NCBI GenBank assembly: GCA_028293375.1
Contig: JAQGOY010000210.1
Location: 1 to 32,573 of the forward strand
Direction of reading: 5' to 3'
Source of the DNA: Verrucomicrobiales bacterium
GTDB taxonomy: Bacteria; Verrucomicrobiota; Verrucomicrobiia; Limisphaerales; JAQGOY01
DNA length: 32,573 bases
In this document: positions 17,968 to 26,406 of the stretch, piece by piece
Layout: the number at the start of each line of letters is the position of its first letter
Position numbering within the stretch: position 1 is the stretch's first letter
Position numbers and translations under genes: made by a program
The notes under the pieces: generated by a model
The model's input: the letters and a program-made list of their open reading frames with translations, nothing else
Told to the model about the DNA's origin: nothing
Databases searched by the model: none

Positions 17968-17976
17968 TTGCCTTCG

Positions 17977-20973
17977 ATGAAGTTCAACCGTAATTATTTT
18001 GGCGGATCGCTTCTGACCACCTTCGTTTCTGGGTGCGCTGCGCTGTTGTCTTTCACCCTTTCACCCGGAGCCACCGCCGCCCCTTCATCGAAAGCCACCC
18101 AGCTTGCTCTCGAAAAAGGGTTTGATAATTCCATTCATCCCTTCCTGGATAATTACTGCCTCGGATGTCACGGCGGTAAGGACAAGATAAAAGGAGAATT
18201 GGATTTGCGACCGTTCACCAGCCTCGAAGCTGTTGCCCTCGACGAACGTCGCTGGAAGTTGATTCTTGATCAGGTCACCGAAGCCAACATGCCCCCCGAA
18301 GAGGCAAAGAAACAACCTTCTCCTGAGGAACGCAAAGCCCTCGTCGAATGGATCAAGTCGATGCGCAAACATGTGGCCGAACGTAATCCCGGCGATCCCG
18401 GTGTCGTCCTCGCCCGTCGGCTCAGCAATGCCGAATATGATTACTCCATCCGTGATTTGACCGGAGTCGATATCCGTCCCACGCGCGAGTTTCCTGTCGA
18501 CCCGGCCAACCAGTCAGGTTTTGACAATACCGGTGAATCGTTATCCATGTCGCCTTCTCTGGTGAAGAAATACCTCGAAGCTGCCCGCAACGTTGCCGAC
18601 CACCTGGTCCTCAAACATGATGGCCTGGCCTTCGCCCCCCATCCGGTCATTGCTGACACGGATCGTGACAAGTATTGCGTGAATAAAATCCTCGAATTTT
18701 ATCACAATCAATCCACCGACATTGCCGATTATTTGGTCGCCTCCTGGAAATTCAGGTTTCGCAAGGAACTCGGGAAACCAAAAGCCACCTTGGAAAGCAT
18801 CGCCGCCGAATCCAAAGTCAGTCCTAAATATCTCAAAACAGTTTGGAACGCATTGCAACAGCCCGGTGAAGATCTCGGCCCGCTGGCCGCACTGCAATCA
18901 TCGTGGCGCGCCCTTCCAAATCCCACCACCGCAAACCTGCAGGAAGTTCGTAAAAACTGCGAAGTTCTCCGTAACTGGGTGGTGCAGCTGAGAAATAAGG
19001 TAAAACCGGAAGTCAGAAATCTCACGGTTCGTGGGATGAATCCCGGAGCCCAGGCCGTCGTGCTTTGGAAGGATAGACAAATGGCCGCCAACCGCACTCT
19101 CTATGGGGGATTAATAAAACTCGATGACTCCAGCTTGCCGCCTGATCCAGTCTCGCAACGAGTCATGGCTACTCCTTCTGAACCGGATGCCAAAGCAAGA
19201 TACGCCGAGGCTTTTAAAAGATTTTGCGCGATCTTTCCGGATGCCTTTTATATTTCTGAACGTGGCCGCGTTTTCATCGATAATGAAGAAAAAGGGAATG
19301 TCGGGCGTTATTTGAGCGCAGGCTTCCACAACCAAATGGGTTATTTCCGCGACGATGGCCCTCTTTACAACATGCTTCTCAATGAGAACCAACAGCGCGA
19401 ACTGGATGGCCTGTGGGAGGATTTCAATTATGTCTCCAGCATCCCCACCCGCCAGTACATGGGACTCATTTGGTTTGAGCGCTCGGAGTCCAGTTTTCTG
19501 CGAGGGACCGAGTTTGATATTTTCCGGGCCGAGGATAAAGACACCACCACCGAGGTCAGGATTAAACAATTTGCTGATTTGTATGTAAGCAAGGTCGAGC
19601 GCACCACCACCAACCAGGTGATTGTGGAAGCTGCCGTTGATCACTTCAAACGGGTAAATCAGGACATTCGCGGGGTTGAAAAAACAAAGGAAAAAGCGGA
19701 GCCGATTCATCTGCAACAACTCCAGGTCATAGCTGAGAAAGCCTATCGTCGTCCCCTCACAACGAAGGAAAAGGAATCCATTGTTGCCTTCTACCGGGAG
19801 CTAAAGGAGAAAGACGCTCTTAGCCACGAAGACGCCATCCGCGATACTCTCGTGCGGGTGCTGATGTCCCCCAACTTTAATTATCGTGTCGATATCGCCC
19901 CAGGCACGAAAAAACTGGTCGCGCTTTCTGATTTCGATTTGGCCAGTCGTCTCAGTTATTTTCTTTGGTCCAGCCTGCCTGATGAGGAATTATTAAAAGC
20001 TGCTGCTTCGGGCGACTTGCACAAGCCAGCCATTCTTGCCAGACAAGTTCGCCGCATGATGAAGGATGCGAAGATTCAGGGCCTGGCCACCGAGTTCGCC
20101 GGCAACTGGCTTGATTTTCGGCGCTTCCAGGCTCACAACGCCGTTGATCGCGAACGCTTCAACACTTTCAATGATGATCTCCGCGAAGCCATGTTTGTAG
20201 AACCCGTTCGCTTCACCACCGACGTTCTGGAGAACAATCGATCCATCCTCGATTTTCTTTTCGCCAAAGACACTTTCGTTAATCCAACTCTGGCCCGCCA
20301 TTATGGCATGCCCGTTCCCAATGTCTCCTCGAACACCTGGGTCCATATCGACGATGCCACTCCTTACCAACGCGGCGGTATTCTTCCCATGTCCGTTTTC
20401 CTCACCAAGAATGCTCCCGGACTCCGGACGAGTCCGGTCAAGCGAGGCTACTGGGTGGTGCGAAATGTTTTGGGCGAACACATTCCCGCACCTCCGCCAA
20501 AAGTTCCAGAACTGCCTGCGGATGAAAGCAAACTGGGCGAATTAACCCTGCGCGAAACTCTCGCCAAACATCGCGAAGACAAATTATGCGCCACCTGTCA
20601 TGCCCGATTCGACGCTGTAGGTCTTGTCTTTGAGGGCTTCGGTCCTGTCGGTGATCTGCGAAAGAAAGACATGGGCGGTCGCCCGGTCGATACCCACGCT
20701 CTTTTTCCCGATGGTTCGGAAGGATCCGGTATGGAAGGCTTGAAAACTTATCTGGGCAATCAACGCAAAGCCGATTTCCTGGATAATTTCTGCCGGAAAC
20801 TTCTCTCCTATGGGCTGGGCCGCACTTTGCAACTTTCCGATGAAGCGACCATTACCCAAATGCTGGCTCGGCTCAAAGCCGATAACTATCGAGTCGAGGG
20901 TCTCATCGAGACCATTGTCACCAGCCCGCAATTCCTGAATAAAAGAGGGCAGGGTGTCCTCGTTTCCAATTAA
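17977..20973 (+). CDS. DUF1587/DUF1592/DUF1588/DUF1585 planctomycete-type cytochrome c-like protein
   Basis: ATG at 17977 (listed TTG at 17968 overlaps the rhodanese spacer); heme motif CLGCH, RLSNAEYDYSIRDLTGVD, ASRLSYFLWSSLPDEELL, second CATCH in KLCATCHARFDAVGLVFEGFGPVG, C-terminal ETIVTSPQFLNKRG. Confidence 0.92.
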   Translation: MKFNRNYFGGSLLTTFVSGCAALLSFTLSPGATAAPSSKATQLALEKGFDNSIHPFLDNYCLGCHGGKDKIKGELDLRPFTSLEAVALDERRWKLILDQVTEANMPPEEAKKQPSPEERKALVEWIKSMRKHVAERNPGDPGVVLARRLSNAEYDYSIRDLTGVDIRPTREFPVDPANQSGFDNTGESLSMSPSLVKKYLEAARNVADHLVLKHDGLAFAPHPVIADTDRDKYCVNKILEFYHNQSTDIADYLVASWKFRFRKELGKPKATLESIAAESKVSPKYLKTVWNALQQPGEDLGPLAALQSSWRALPNPTTANLQEVRKNCEVLRNWVVQLRNKVKPEVRNLTVRGMNPGAQAVVLWKDRQMAANRTLYGGLIKLDDSSLPPDPVSQRVMATPSEPDAKARYAEAFKRFCAIFPDAFYISERGRVFIDNEEKGNVGRYLSAGFHNQMGYFRDDGPLYNMLLNENQQRELDGLWEDFNYVSSIPTRQYMGLIWFERSESSFLRGTEFDIFRAEDKDTTTEVRIKQFADLYVSKVERTTTNQVIVEAAVDHFKRVNQDIRGVEKTKEKAEPIHLQQLQVIAEKAYRRPLTTKEKESIVAFYRELKEKDALSHEDAIRDTLVRVLMSPNFNYRVDIAPGTKKLVALSDFDLASRLSYFLWSSLPDEELLKAAASGDLHKPAILARQVRRMMKDAKIQGLATEFAGNWLDFRRFQAHNAVDRERFNTFNDDLREAMFVEPVRFTTDVLENNRSILDFLFAKDTFVNPTLARHYGMPVPNVSSNTWVHIDDATPYQRGGILPMSVFLTKNAPGLRTSPVKRGYWVVRNVLGEHIPAPPPKVPELPADESKLGELTLRETLAKHREDKLCATCHARFDAVGLVFEGFGPVGDLRKKDMGGRPVDTHALFPDGSEGSGMEGLKTYLGNQRKADFLDNFCRKLLSYGLGRTLQLSDEATITQMLARLKADNYRVEGLIETIVTSPQFLNKRGQGVLVSN

Positions 20974-20977
20974 GCTT

Positions 20978-22312
20978 ATGCGCAACCCCATCCTTTCCAA
21001 AAGCGGTGTAAGCCGCAGAACTTTCCTCAGAGGCGCAGGTGTGGTCATGGCCCTGCCATGGTTGGAATCTCTTCCCGTCTGGGGCGTCACGTCAGGTAAA
21101 GACGGCGTCACCGCGCCAAAACGTTTTGCCACCCTCTTTATGGGCAATGGCATTAACGCCACTCATTGGTGGGCCAAAGGTGCGGGGACAGAAATGGAAC
21201 TCGGAAAAAGCCTGCAACCATTGGAGCCTTATAAAACAAAGCTGAACTTGATTCACGGCCTTTTCAATAAATCGGCCACCGGGGTGGGCATTCATCCAGG
21301 TCAAACCGGCAACATTCTTTCCGGCGTCGCTCTCCAAAAAGGCGCTGAGCTTCATGGCGGCATCAGCATGGATCAGGTGCTCGCGAACCACATCGGCCAG
21401 GACACCGTGCAGCCTTCCATGGTCCTCGGCTGCGAACTCCCGGTGACCGGTTACCACGAAAGCAATTTCTCCCTCGCCTACAGTTCTCATATCTCCTGGC
21501 AGAACGCCACCTCCCCGGTTCCCATGGAGGAATACCCCTCGCTCGCCTTTGACAGTTTGTTCGATAACCGCGGCAATCAACGCAATAAAAGTATTCTGGA
21601 TCGTGTCCAGGAAGACGCCGACAGTCTCAATCGCAAAGTGAGCTCGGCCGACAAAGCAAAAATCGACGAGTATCTCACCAGCGTTCGCGAAGTGGAAAAA
21701 CGGCTCGACACCGCTCGCCTCGCCAAGGACAAGGCCGACGAAAAAATCAAGGAACGTGGAGCCTCCGCCTTCACCATGAAGCGCCCCGAAAATGGCCTTC
21801 CGGAAGATCTTCGCGAACACATGCGCCTCATGTGCGACATCCTCGCTCTCGGCTTTCAGACCGATAAGACCAGGGTCGCCAGTCTCCTCCTTTGCCGCGA
21901 TTTGTCCGGTTTGACCTATCCCTTCCTCGGCGTGAGAAATGGGCATCATTCCGCTTCGCACAATGATTTATCGGATGAGTATGAAAAGATCACTCGCTAC
22001 TACGTCAGCCAGCTGGCTTATCTCGCCGGAAAGTTGGAATCCATGAAGGAAGGTGATTCCAATGTGCTTGATAATTCATGTCTTATGTTTATTTCCAACA
22101 TGTGGGCGGGCAGCAAGCATGACTCCACCAAGGTTCCGCTCTTGCTGGTCGGAGGTCTCGGAGGCACCTTGAAGACCGGCCGCGCTCTCGACTATCTCGA
22201 TAAAGGAAACGAGAACCGAAAGCTCTGCAGTCTTTACCTTTCCCTCATGGACAGGATGGGCGTCGAGCTCCAGGGCTTTGGTGATGCCGCTACTCGCCTC
22301 GCCGGTATTTAG
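20978..22312 (+). CDS. DUF1552 protein with Tat-type leader
   Basis: ATG 20978: SRRTFLRGAGVVMALPWLESLP; PKRFATLFMGNGINATHWWAKG; begins 4 nt after the DUF1592 stop. Confidence 0.92.
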   Translation: MRNPILSKSGVSRRTFLRGAGVVMALPWLESLPVWGVTSGKDGVTAPKRFATLFMGNGINATHWWAKGAGTEMELGKSLQPLEPYKTKLNLIHGLFNKSATGVGIHPGQTGNILSGVALQKGAELHGGISMDQVLANHIGQDTVQPSMVLGCELPVTGYHESNFSLAYSSHISWQNATSPVPMEEYPSLAFDSLFDNRGNQRNKSILDRVQEDADSLNRKVSSADKAKIDEYLTSVREVEKRLDTARLAKDKADEKIKERGASAFTMKRPENGLPEDLREHMRLMCDILALGFQTDKTRVASLLLCRDLSGLTYPFLGVRNGHHSASHNDLSDEYEKITRYYVSQLAYLAGKLESMKEGDSNVLDNSCLMFISNMWAGSKHDSTKVPLLLVGGLGGTLKTGRALDYLDKGNENRKLCSLYLSLMDRMGVELQGFGDAATRLAGI

Positions 22313-24174: not shown

Positions 24175-24310
24175 GGTTTTCGACAAAGCCGAAAACCCCA
24201 TTCGAGCTCCAGCGGAGCGAAATGTTTATAGCCAGGGCAGCGCAGCATGCCCTGGTTCATCAATCAGCGCCTCGCGCTCTCGACGCCAATTTTGCAAAAT
24301 TGGCGCAATC
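24175..24310. repeat. Modular multi-hairpin repeat, copy A
   Basis: Ordered stems: GGTTTTCG/CGAAAACC, GCTCC/GGAGC, CCAGGGCA/TGCCCTGG, GCGC/GCGC, palindrome CGCCAATTTTGCAAAATTGGCG. Confidence 0.8.
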
Positions 24311-24523
24311 CCACAATTACCCCCATCCACCGGTTCACCGCGAACCGCAAAAGGCAACGCCTGCAACTCCTACCAAGTGTTTATGGAGACTTGATGCAGC
24401 CGGTGCAGCGGGTTATTGATCGAAAGTCGAATCATGTGTAGATAATGGCCTTTACGATATTTTCTGTGGTATACGGACGGCACTTTATCCCAATAATAGT
24501 GGACAATGAAGGGCAATGATTCG

Positions 24524-24805
24524 ATGCAAAATATTTCGCTCATTAGACGTCACTGTGCGGACCCTTTGAACGAGGAGATTCAAGCGAGCATCCTCAATAA
24601 TATTGAGTCGATGGCTGCTTCCCTGATTGATAATTTAAATCAGTTTACACCTGAGGAGCGTATGCAAATATATGGTGATTTAACTCCTATTTACGGTTCC
24701 TTCGGGAAAAGGGTCTTTGATAATTGGATAGAGGTCGAGACTGACAGTCGTTGCAAAAAACTGGCCTCGCTGATAAAGCATCGGTTCGCCGCGAACCGCA
24801 ACTAG
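24524..24805 (+). CDS. Small hypothetical protein (~93 aa), C-terminus encoded within repeat copy B
   Basis: ORF MQNISLIRRHCADPLNEEIQASILNN...; last residues (FAANRN) read through CGGTTCGCCGCGAACCGCAACTAG. Confidence 0.35.
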   Translation: MQNISLIRRHCADPLNEEIQASILNNIESMAASLIDNLNQFTPEERMQIYGDLTPIYGSFGKRVFDNWIEVETDSRCKKLASLIKHRFAANRN

Positions 24806-24847
24806 CGCACCAAAGGTGCAAACGGAATTCAGCCCAGCCCAGTCGGG
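24782..24847. repeat. Modular multi-hairpin repeat, copy B, left part (interrupted by IS)
   Basis: Stems CGGTTCG/CGAACCG, GCACC/GGTGC, then left arm CCCAGCCC and loop AGTC. Confidence 0.75.
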
Positions 24848-26336
24848 CTTGTCATTACCCACAAATGGATTTAATTAAAATGGGGCTTGTACTTTTGGTG
24901 AATGTACCCATTGTTAAAGGTCATGCAAAATTCATTGCTGACATGCGACCAATGGGCTCGCAAGCATTTTTCCTCGGTTGACCTGGGTGATTGCCGACTC
25001 TCATGCCGTCTGGTTAAAGTGGCTGCTGCGCTGGCCAGTAAACCGGGCGGCACTCTGCCCGCTGCGCTGCCGCGATGGCCGGATTTGAAAGCGGCCTATC
25101 GATTGTTGGACAACCCTTCACTCACTTTTGAAAAAGCGGGCCAGCCACATTGGCTGAACACGCTAGCCGCCTGTTCCGCGCCCGGGCGCTGGCTGCTTAT
25201 AGAGGACAGCACATCATTAAACTTCAGTTCGCGCACGCATCTCAGCGGGATTGGCCGCATTGGTGATGATCGCGGGCGTGGGATTAATTTGCATACAAAT
25301 CTTGCTTTTGCGGTCGGGCCATTGGAGCCCGGAGAACAGCCACGCCTGTCACTGGTCGGCGTGGCCGGGCAGCAGTTGTGGGTTCGGGGCGAAGAGTTAA
25401 ATCGTGGTAACGTTCCACTGGGGCGCGAGCGAAAGCAGCGGCGTTTTGCACGTTCCCGTGAGTCCGAGCGATGGGGCAAAACGCTGGCTGGCTTGCCAGC
25501 GCCTTCGCCAGGCTGCCAGCGAATCTACATCGCCGATCGTGAGAGCGACATCTATGAGTTGTTTGAGCGTTGCGAGCAGGCAGCCTGCGATTATGTAATC
25601 CGAGCCTGCCAGGACCGCGCCTTGCTTGAGGCTCCGGGCCCGCTCATGGCCACCATCGGGCAGCAACCGGAATTGGGCCGTTACCAATTGGAGTTGCGGG
25701 CTCGTCCCGGGACGCCGGCGCGCACGGTCACCATTGCCATCCGCACCGCCACCGTGTTGTTGCGCGCGCCCTGGCGGCCTGGAAAAAAGTCGCCGCGTCA
25801 AATGAATGTGGTGCAGGCGCGCGAAATAAACCCGCCCGCTGGAGCAAGGGAAATTAACTGGACGCTCCTTACCAACCTGGCCTGCGCAAATTTTGAAGAA
25901 GCGCGTCAGGTCGTCAAACTCTATGCCTGCCGTTGGATCATCGAGGAATATCACAAAGCGCTGAAAACTGGTGCTGGCATTGAACAAAGTCAGTTGCAGG
26001 AATACACGCGAATCAAAGCGCTGGCGGCCATTTTGAGCTTGGTGGCGGCGCGCCTTCTGGGGTTGAAACTGGAAGCGGGCCAAGATCCTGAAGTCCTCGT
26101 GGCGGCAGGACAAGTGGAGCCTGAGGTCCTCCAAATCCTGGAGGCAACCTTCGGCCCACCCAAAGGTGGATGGACCCAACATAACTTATGGATATCAATT
26201 GCCAGAATGGGCGGATACCTGGCCAGAAACTCCGACGGACCTCCCGGCTGGCAAACTTCGTGGCGCGGTTGGCAACGCCTCTCTCAGATGGTCGAAGGCG
26301 TTCTGCTGGTTAAACCACGTTGTGGGTAATGACAAG
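24848..26336 (+). mobile_element. IS4-family (Tn5/IS50-like transposase) insertion sequence, apparently intact
   Basis: Inverted repeats CTTGTCATTACCCACAA (24848-24864) / TTGTGGGTAATGACAAG (26320-26336), extendable outward to GGG/CCC; flanking direct repeat AGCCCAGTCGGGCT (24836-24849 and 26335-26348), exact TSD boundary ambiguous because the target is palindromic. Confidence 0.85.
24902..26329 (+). CDS. IS4-family transposase (Tn5-like)
   Basis: Tn5-type N-terminus DLGDCRLSCRLVKVAAALASKPGGTLPAALPRWPDLKAAYRLLDNP; DDE candidates LIEDSTSL, ADRESD, WIIEEYHKALKTG; stop codon lies in the right IR. Confidence 0.9.
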   Translation: MYPLLKVMQNSLLTCDQWARKHFSSVDLGDCRLSCRLVKVAAALASKPGGTLPAALPRWPDLKAAYRLLDNPSLTFEKAGQPHWLNTLAACSAPGRWLLIEDSTSLNFSSRTHLSGIGRIGDDRGRGINLHTNLAFAVGPLEPGEQPRLSLVGVAGQQLWVRGEELNRGNVPLGRERKQRRFARSRESERWGKTLAGLPAPSPGCQRIYIADRESDIYELFERCEQAACDYVIRACQDRALLEAPGPLMATIGQQPELGRYQLELRARPGTPARTVTIAIRTATVLLRAPWRPGKKSPRQMNVVQAREINPPAGAREINWTLLTNLACANFEEARQVVKLYACRWIIEEYHKALKTGAGIEQSQLQEYTRIKALAAILSLVAARLLGLKLEAGQDPEVLVAAGQVEPEVLQILEATFGPPKGGWTQHNLWISIARMGGYLARNSDGPPGWQTSWRGWQRLSQMVEGVLLVKPRCG

Positions 26337-26406
26337 CCCAGTCGGGCTGGGTATTCGATCCAGCGCACCGCGCTCTCGACGCCAATTTTGCAAAATTGGC
26401 GCAATC
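26337..26406. repeat. Modular multi-hairpin repeat, copy B, right part
   Basis: Right arm GGGCTGGG, GCGCaccGCGC, and a 37-bp segment (26370-26406) identical to 24274-24310. Confidence 0.8.

Follow-up and report, generated by a model that had tools for sequence, protein, structure and literature searches.

Hairpin repeats tied to Y1 HuH proteins are an already known kind of bacterial element. REPs and the REPtrons that they form with TnpA_REP (RAYT) transposases have a short unpaired 5′ foot, are intergenic and dispersed, and lie inverted around a Y1 HuH gene (PMC3733652, PMC6006769, PMC8266576). Members of the IS200/IS605 family, such as IS608 and ISDra2, encode a related Y1 transposase and carry subterminal hairpins with a guide foot. 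The REP-like arrays of class 3 TnpA_Y1 proteins in Planctomycetes and Acidobacteria consist of several atypical hairpins beside the Y1 gene, in many copies per genome, with a CnGA foot and the Y motif YV[VI]xEQ (PMC6006769). In TIRYTs, inverted repeats lie to the left and right of the Y1 gene, and solo copies are moderately abundant (PMC3733652); Corneloup et al. tentatively equated them with subclass 2.1 (PMC6006769). The same authors defined in 2018 a ‘subclass 1.2’ with the signature DHVH...YIxxQxxHH, mostly from Cyanobacteria and Bacteroidetes, for which neither repeats nor typical IS ends were reported (PMC6006769). On the RNA side, Acido-Lenti-1 (Rfam RF01687) was put forward in 2010 as a likely RNA without a known role (PMC2864571); a 2026 paper calls it little known and suggests that it may regulate protease genes in Tannerella (PMC13298647).

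Here, we describe a repeat family from a Verrucomicrobiales bacterium, first seen in a window of 32,573 nucleotides, the whole stretch of DNA that was analysed (assembly GCA_028293375.1, contig JAQGOY010000210.1). In our judgement these repeats are quite probably REP-like and non-autonomous, copied from the terminal hairpin arrays of a HuH/Y1 (‘subclass 1.2’) transposase related to those of IS200/IS605. The window holds two copies, A and B, which share the element order hairpin 0–hairpin 1–hairpin 2–hairpin 3–hairpin 4 and differ in their stems with pairing kept (Table 1). The original prediction had described this arrangement, and each element that it quoted is present at its place, confirming the observation. 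The tails of the two copies are 96% identical over 46 nt, a 37-bp identical stretch included, and the foot before hairpin 2 reads ATAG in copy A and TCAG in copy B. Between the copies lies a 99-aa ORF without a family match (24506-24805, + strand), whose 3′ end enters hairpin 0 of copy B. Elsewhere in the window, positions 17968-22312 encode a DUF1592/PSCyt-type protein and, after it, a DUF1552 (HXXSHH) protein; this pairing is typical of Planctomycetes and relatives.

Table 1. Repeat elements and insertion sequence in the window
Feature	Position	Strand	Basis or remark
Copy A hairpin 0 (GGTTTTCG...CGAAAACC)	24175-24197	+	sequence
Copy A stretch matched by model R2	24205-24306	+	E=0.0086
Copy A hairpin 1 (GCTCC-AGC-GGAGC)	24206-24218	+	sequence
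Copy A hairpin 1 and spacer with terminal ATAG foot	24206-24231	+	resembles Y1-flanking ends L168, L154
Copy A hairpin 2 (CCAGGGCA...TGCCCTGG)	24232-24255	+	sequence
Copy A hairpin 3 (AGCGC-CTC-GCGCT)	24266-24278	+	sequence
Copy A hairpin 4, the tail palindrome CGCCAATTTTGCAAAATTGGCG	24284-24305	+	sequence
Isolated third hairpin 0, just 3′ of copy A	24331-24347	+	sequence; absent from the original prediction
Copy B hairpin 0	24782-24798	+	sequence
Copy B hairpin 1 (GCACC-AAA-GGTGC)	24807-24819	+	sequence
Copy B hairpin 2, left part, with first 14-bp direct repeat (24836-24849)	24833-24849	+	
IS4-family insertion sequence inside copy B hairpin 2	24850-26334	+	transposase ORF 24902-26329
Copy B hairpin 2, right part, with second direct repeat (26335-26348)	26335-26351	+	
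Copy B hairpin 3 (AGCGC-ACC-GCGCT)	26362-26374	+	sequence
Copy B hairpin 4, the tail palindrome	26380-26401	+	sequence

Copy B is split within hairpin 2 by an insertion sequence with perfect 15-bp inverted ends, bordered on either side by the 14-bp direct repeat AGCCCAGTCGGGCT; joining the flanks without it yields an uninterrupted hairpin 2. Its transposase belongs to the IS4 family (NF033590, E=6e-90) and shares only about 34% protein identity with its closest plasmid relatives, and the element is present as a single copy in the window's assembly. It probably entered hairpin 2 of copy B later than the repeat spread. ISPpu9 in Pseudomonas putida is one precedent for IS insertion into REPs (PMC8450116).

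DNA, pattern and covariance model searches of the window's own assembly (4.12 Mb, 281 contigs, 75.6% complete) recovered about 16 credible copies of the core formed by hairpin 3 and the tail. A 25-base tail pattern gave four matches per strand genome-wide, as against none for the reversed-pattern control. The copies are few and divergent, and their tails fall into two classes: most class 1 tails end in ...CGCAATC or a near variant, and in class 2 the linker is altered and GCGCCGCAGGC follows. The centre of the tail palindrome, ATT..GC..AAT, is near-constant in most copies; the outer bases vary freely and are still paired. Upstream of the tail, most copies keep the order of hairpins 1 to 4, and several also have hairpin 0, again with differing stems. 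The family is modular, with hairpins missing or doubled: the C162 copy has two consecutive hairpin 1–hairpin 2 units, the C231:8157 and C264 copies lack hairpin 2 and retain the ...ATAG foot, and the C231:2468 copy consists of hairpin 3 and the tail alone. Among 320 genomes the hairpin 3–hairpin 4 tail was limited to the window's own genome and one credible copy in another, G062, and was never found beside a Y1 gene; it is a lineage-specific form. All other matches of model R1 in relatives were weak, and those inspected lay in coding-like sequence, so we attribute them to chance. A tail match on contig C46 adjoins a tRNA-like stretch, has no upstream hairpins and is probably spurious. The loose hairpin 2 pattern AGCCCA-N-TGGGT was not enriched across the window's own genome (36 matches vs 29 in the control). 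Two further observations concern the surroundings of the copies. On C244 and C208 (L002/L004, L006), the tail is preceded, at a distance of roughly 200-330 bp, by a second shared repeat, GCGGAATTGAACTTCCGCCTTGAAATG or a variant of it. At L057, a short antitoxin-like ORF followed by an ORF that by eye is PIN-domain-like (1710-2398, + strand) lies directly upstream of a solo hairpin 3–tail copy.

Similar arrays flank transposase genes in relatives. Of 116 genomes of the same order, the window's own included, 99 have the domain PF01797 (Y1_Tnp). We sampled 40 stretches of 5 to 8 kb around PF01797 genes in relatives; these are the higher-scoring matches, which biases the sample towards class 1 proteins. 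The density of perfect hairpins within 250 bp of the Y1 gene is roughly tenfold that beyond 1 kb, and these hairpins form triads. A triad begins with a short hairpin whose loop has 3 nt, continues with a spacer that closes on TAG or CAG and with the larger hairpin 2 (CC...GG), and after about 20-25 nt has another short hairpin. A covariance model of 18 such Y1-flanking triads, R2, was built without any sequence from the window's genome, and 13 of its 20 pairs co-vary. Applied to the 40 loci, R2 found 97 triads, 80 of them within 500 bp of the gene and 95 within 1 kb, and in 36 loci at least one triad lay within 500 bp. The nearest triads are inverted across the gene, with the left one on the + strand in 28 of 32 cases and the right one on the - strand in 24 of 29. 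Among the 97 triads, the feet are most often ATAG (35 triads), CCAG (18) or GTAG (13). Triads are also dispersed, with dozens per genome in relatives, and across the 116 genomes they co-occur with Y1 genes: 92 genomes have both, 10 have neither, seven have triads only and seven have Y1 only (Fisher p=3e-6, an optimistic value given that the genomes are related). Like the C231 and C264 copies, the Y1-flanking arrays L154, L160, L165 and L168 lack hairpin 2, with foot and neighbours intact. Hairpin 2 may thus be a replaceable module placed right after the TAG foot. Precise excision of hairpin 2 from some copies, suggested by TAG|T junctions, is a weakened explanation because whole Y1-flanking subfamilies are without hairpin 2, so that its absence can be ancestral. 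At L168 (3340-3870), a two-hairpin array (GCTCC-GTA-GGAGC...TGTTTATAA) is borne by near-identical tandem units of about 230 bp that adjoin the Y1 gene.

Three array-flanked proteins that were tested match IS200/IS605 transposases (NF033573) and score below the cut-off of the RAYT model NF047646, and one aligns with the ISHp608 transposase structure. The 36 flanked proteins that were read carry the HuH motif DHVH (or DHIH, DHLH, DHMH) and, save two exceptions, YIxxQxxHH; by these HuH and Y motifs alone, we assign them to subclass 1.2. A search of the window's own assembly, 75.6% complete so that the missing quarter could hold the gene, found no PF01797 match, whether as a Y1 transposase or as a class 2 TnpA_REP gene. 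With few, divergent copies and no Y1 transposase found in this 75.6%-complete assembly, the repeats there look like relics, carrying a tail that is specific to their lineage.

The arrays differ in part from each described system. They share with REPtrons a short 5′ foot, the intergenic and dispersed placement and the inversion around a Y1 HuH gene; however, the unit here has three hairpins, whereas REP hairpins are single or paired, and the flanked genes have class 1 motifs. The window copies do not carry the GTAG or GTGG foot of RAYT REPs, and GTAG feet occur in only 13 of the 97 related triads, which mostly have ATAG or CCAG. Unlike the ends of IS608 or ISDra2, those described here consist of several hairpins and face each other across the gene, and the copies in the window lack a transposase gene. 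Class 3 TnpA_Y1 arrays are likewise built of several hairpins, but have their own foot and Y motif in place of the TAG/CAG and YIxxQxxHH seen here. TIRYTs match in layout; their counterparts here are hairpin triads, and the proteins are class 1 by motif. We also considered CGTC-tagged REPs, since the reverse strand of the tail reads CGTCGAG, and rejected them because the described AT-led stem and CCA tail are absent (PMC3733652).

The window repeats are homologous to these transposase-flanking arrays. On 157 kb of own contigs picked by the tail alone, R2 gave eight hits, seven of them members of the window's repeat family: the hits are on C208, C13, C162, C27 (two), C244 (at 15160) and C231 (one, weak), and in copy A of the window. 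At 19.7 bits (E=0.0086 for 157 kb), the match to copy A is modest; copy B, split as it stands, was not matched in this search. In the whole own genome, the four best R2 hits are all members of the window family. Moreover, hairpin 1 of copy A with its spacer, GCTCCAGCGGAGCGAAATGTTTATAG, closely resembles the Y1-flanking sequences of L168, GCTCCGTAGGAGCGCCATGTTTATAACC, and L154. The first of the two readings offered by the original prediction, a REP-like mobile intergenic element, is supported by this homology of hairpins 1 to 3 to Y1-flanking arrays.

Conservation of the fold is visible in both sets of sequences. In the first 10 copies, pairing is 98.6% and double changes occur at five pairs; the covariation score of 0.324 compares with a mean of 0.132 for shuffles, and slid structures score no more than 0.09. 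Extending the alignment to 17 copies (16 own and the one from G062) gave 231 Watson-Crick, three G-T and four unpaired cells over the 14 pairs of hairpin 3 and the tail, and double changes at all nine tail pairs; aligning the copies to the structure inflates pairing, yet the controls with slid structures still score far lower. The triads of the 40 loci contain 1711 Watson-Crick vs 40 G-T pairs. Their 96 distinct rows have double changes at 19 of 20 pairs and a covariation score of 0.607; shuffles score 0.177 and slid structures 0.1 at most. Our argument rests on covariation because fold z-scores for the 110 nt upstream of single copies, mostly negative, are mixed. The proposal that selection acts on structure rather than primary sequence, first drawn from copies A and B, is thus borne out by covariation in the copies and in the triads; in place of two copies only, or copies that do not co-vary, the genome holds about 16 with covariation present.

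A further link leads to Acido-Lenti-1. An Rfam search of the window returned nothing above any cut-off, RF01687 included. In the 40 Y1 loci, however, RF01687 has 20 matches above cut-off, in 11 loci (among them L132, L136, L138, L140, L141, L143, L146, L148, L159 and L169), and 16 of the 20 are no more than about 310 bp away from the Y1 domain. At the same threshold, 84 of 112 genomes of the order and none of 14 control genomes contain it, some genomes of the order with at least 49 scored matches. Within the window's own genome, a sister copy (C13:20-74) matches at 38.1 bits against a cut-off of 37, and C208:1853-1907 matches below the cut-off; both are the hairpin 1–hairpin 2 part of copies with a class 1 tail. 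The Rfam model covers hairpins 2 and 1 of the three-hairpin arrays, read on the other strand. It differs in that it describes 46 nt modelled as an sRNA, whereas the arrays are longer and stand beside transposase genes. We lean towards the broader reading that an unrecognised, order-wide REP-type system of subclass 1.2 Y1 transposases has the three-hairpin arrays as its ends and its solo copies, and that Acido-Lenti-1 is a piece of these DNA ends rather than a gene for an RNA.

The second reading of the original prediction, a structured non-coding or cis-regulatory RNA family whose hairpins work in the transcript, strikes us as improbable. RF01687 was judged a probable RNA in 2010 (PMC2864571) and matches the sister copy above cut-off, but the window itself has no Rfam match. 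The strong covariation would suit an RNA, but a DNA fold gives the same signal, and G-T pairs, which an RNA fold tolerates, make up some 2% of paired cells. Both the inverted pairs flanking transposase genes and the high, dispersed copy number are the behaviour of mobile DNA, and the modularity of the copies likewise speaks against an RNA family. What stands of this suggestion is that Rfam lists part of the element as RNA; the near absence of G-T pairs and the transposon-end placement favour folded single-stranded DNA over RNA as the selected molecule. The window repeats are most likely a family of mobile DNA rather than RNA genes.

We are equally doubtful that the repeats are domesticated or passive intergenic palindromes, serving as host-protein sites, terminators or mRNA-end stabilisers, with a merely historical link to the transposase. 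The low number and divergence of the own copies, and the lack of a detected transposase, agree with such a role, as does the near-constant tail centre, which a dimeric protein site might also have; however, the outer tail bases vary yet pair, which a sequence-specific operator would not tolerate. As no T run follows the tail, it is not a typical intrinsic terminator, and in relatives the association with the Y1 gene is current. Integron attC sites also conserve a fold with variable stems, and several same-orientation copies occur on contigs C231 and C244. Nonetheless, we find it very hard to credit that the repeats are attC sites: the C231 copies sit among genes that appear ordinary for a chromosome, local duplication explains the two close C244 copies, which lie in similar flanks, and by eye the GTTRRRY/RYYYAAC boxes are absent from the invariant core.

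Returning to the transposon-end reading, we build on four directly supported points, namely the homology between window and arrays, the inverted placement around the gene, the genome-level co-occurrence and the covariation, to propose how the arrays may be recognised as folded single-stranded DNA and mobilised. By analogy with IS608 and TnpA_REP (PMC6006769, PMC8266576), the transposase would bind the array where it is single-stranded and folded, such as on the lagging-strand template. The main recognition hairpin would be hairpin 2, with the TAG/CAG foot on its 5′ side and hairpins 1 and 3 flanking it; the foot would act as a guide, and the enzyme would cut with its tyrosine. Cleavage and rejoining by the tyrosine could then spread copies to intergenic sites. 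Stems may change if both arms change, because in this scheme the fold and the short foot are read, not the stem sequence.

Among open-licence papers we found no earlier mention of the triad anatomy, of its apparent association with subclass 1.2 or of its identity with part of RF01687, and the links to subclass 1.2 and RF01687 appear to be new. If they are correct, a curated Rfam RNA family would move to mobile DNA, a caution that strong covariation is by itself no proof of RNA. Subclass 1.2 HuH transposases would gain a candidate substrate, and REPtron biology would reach this order with a new end anatomy.
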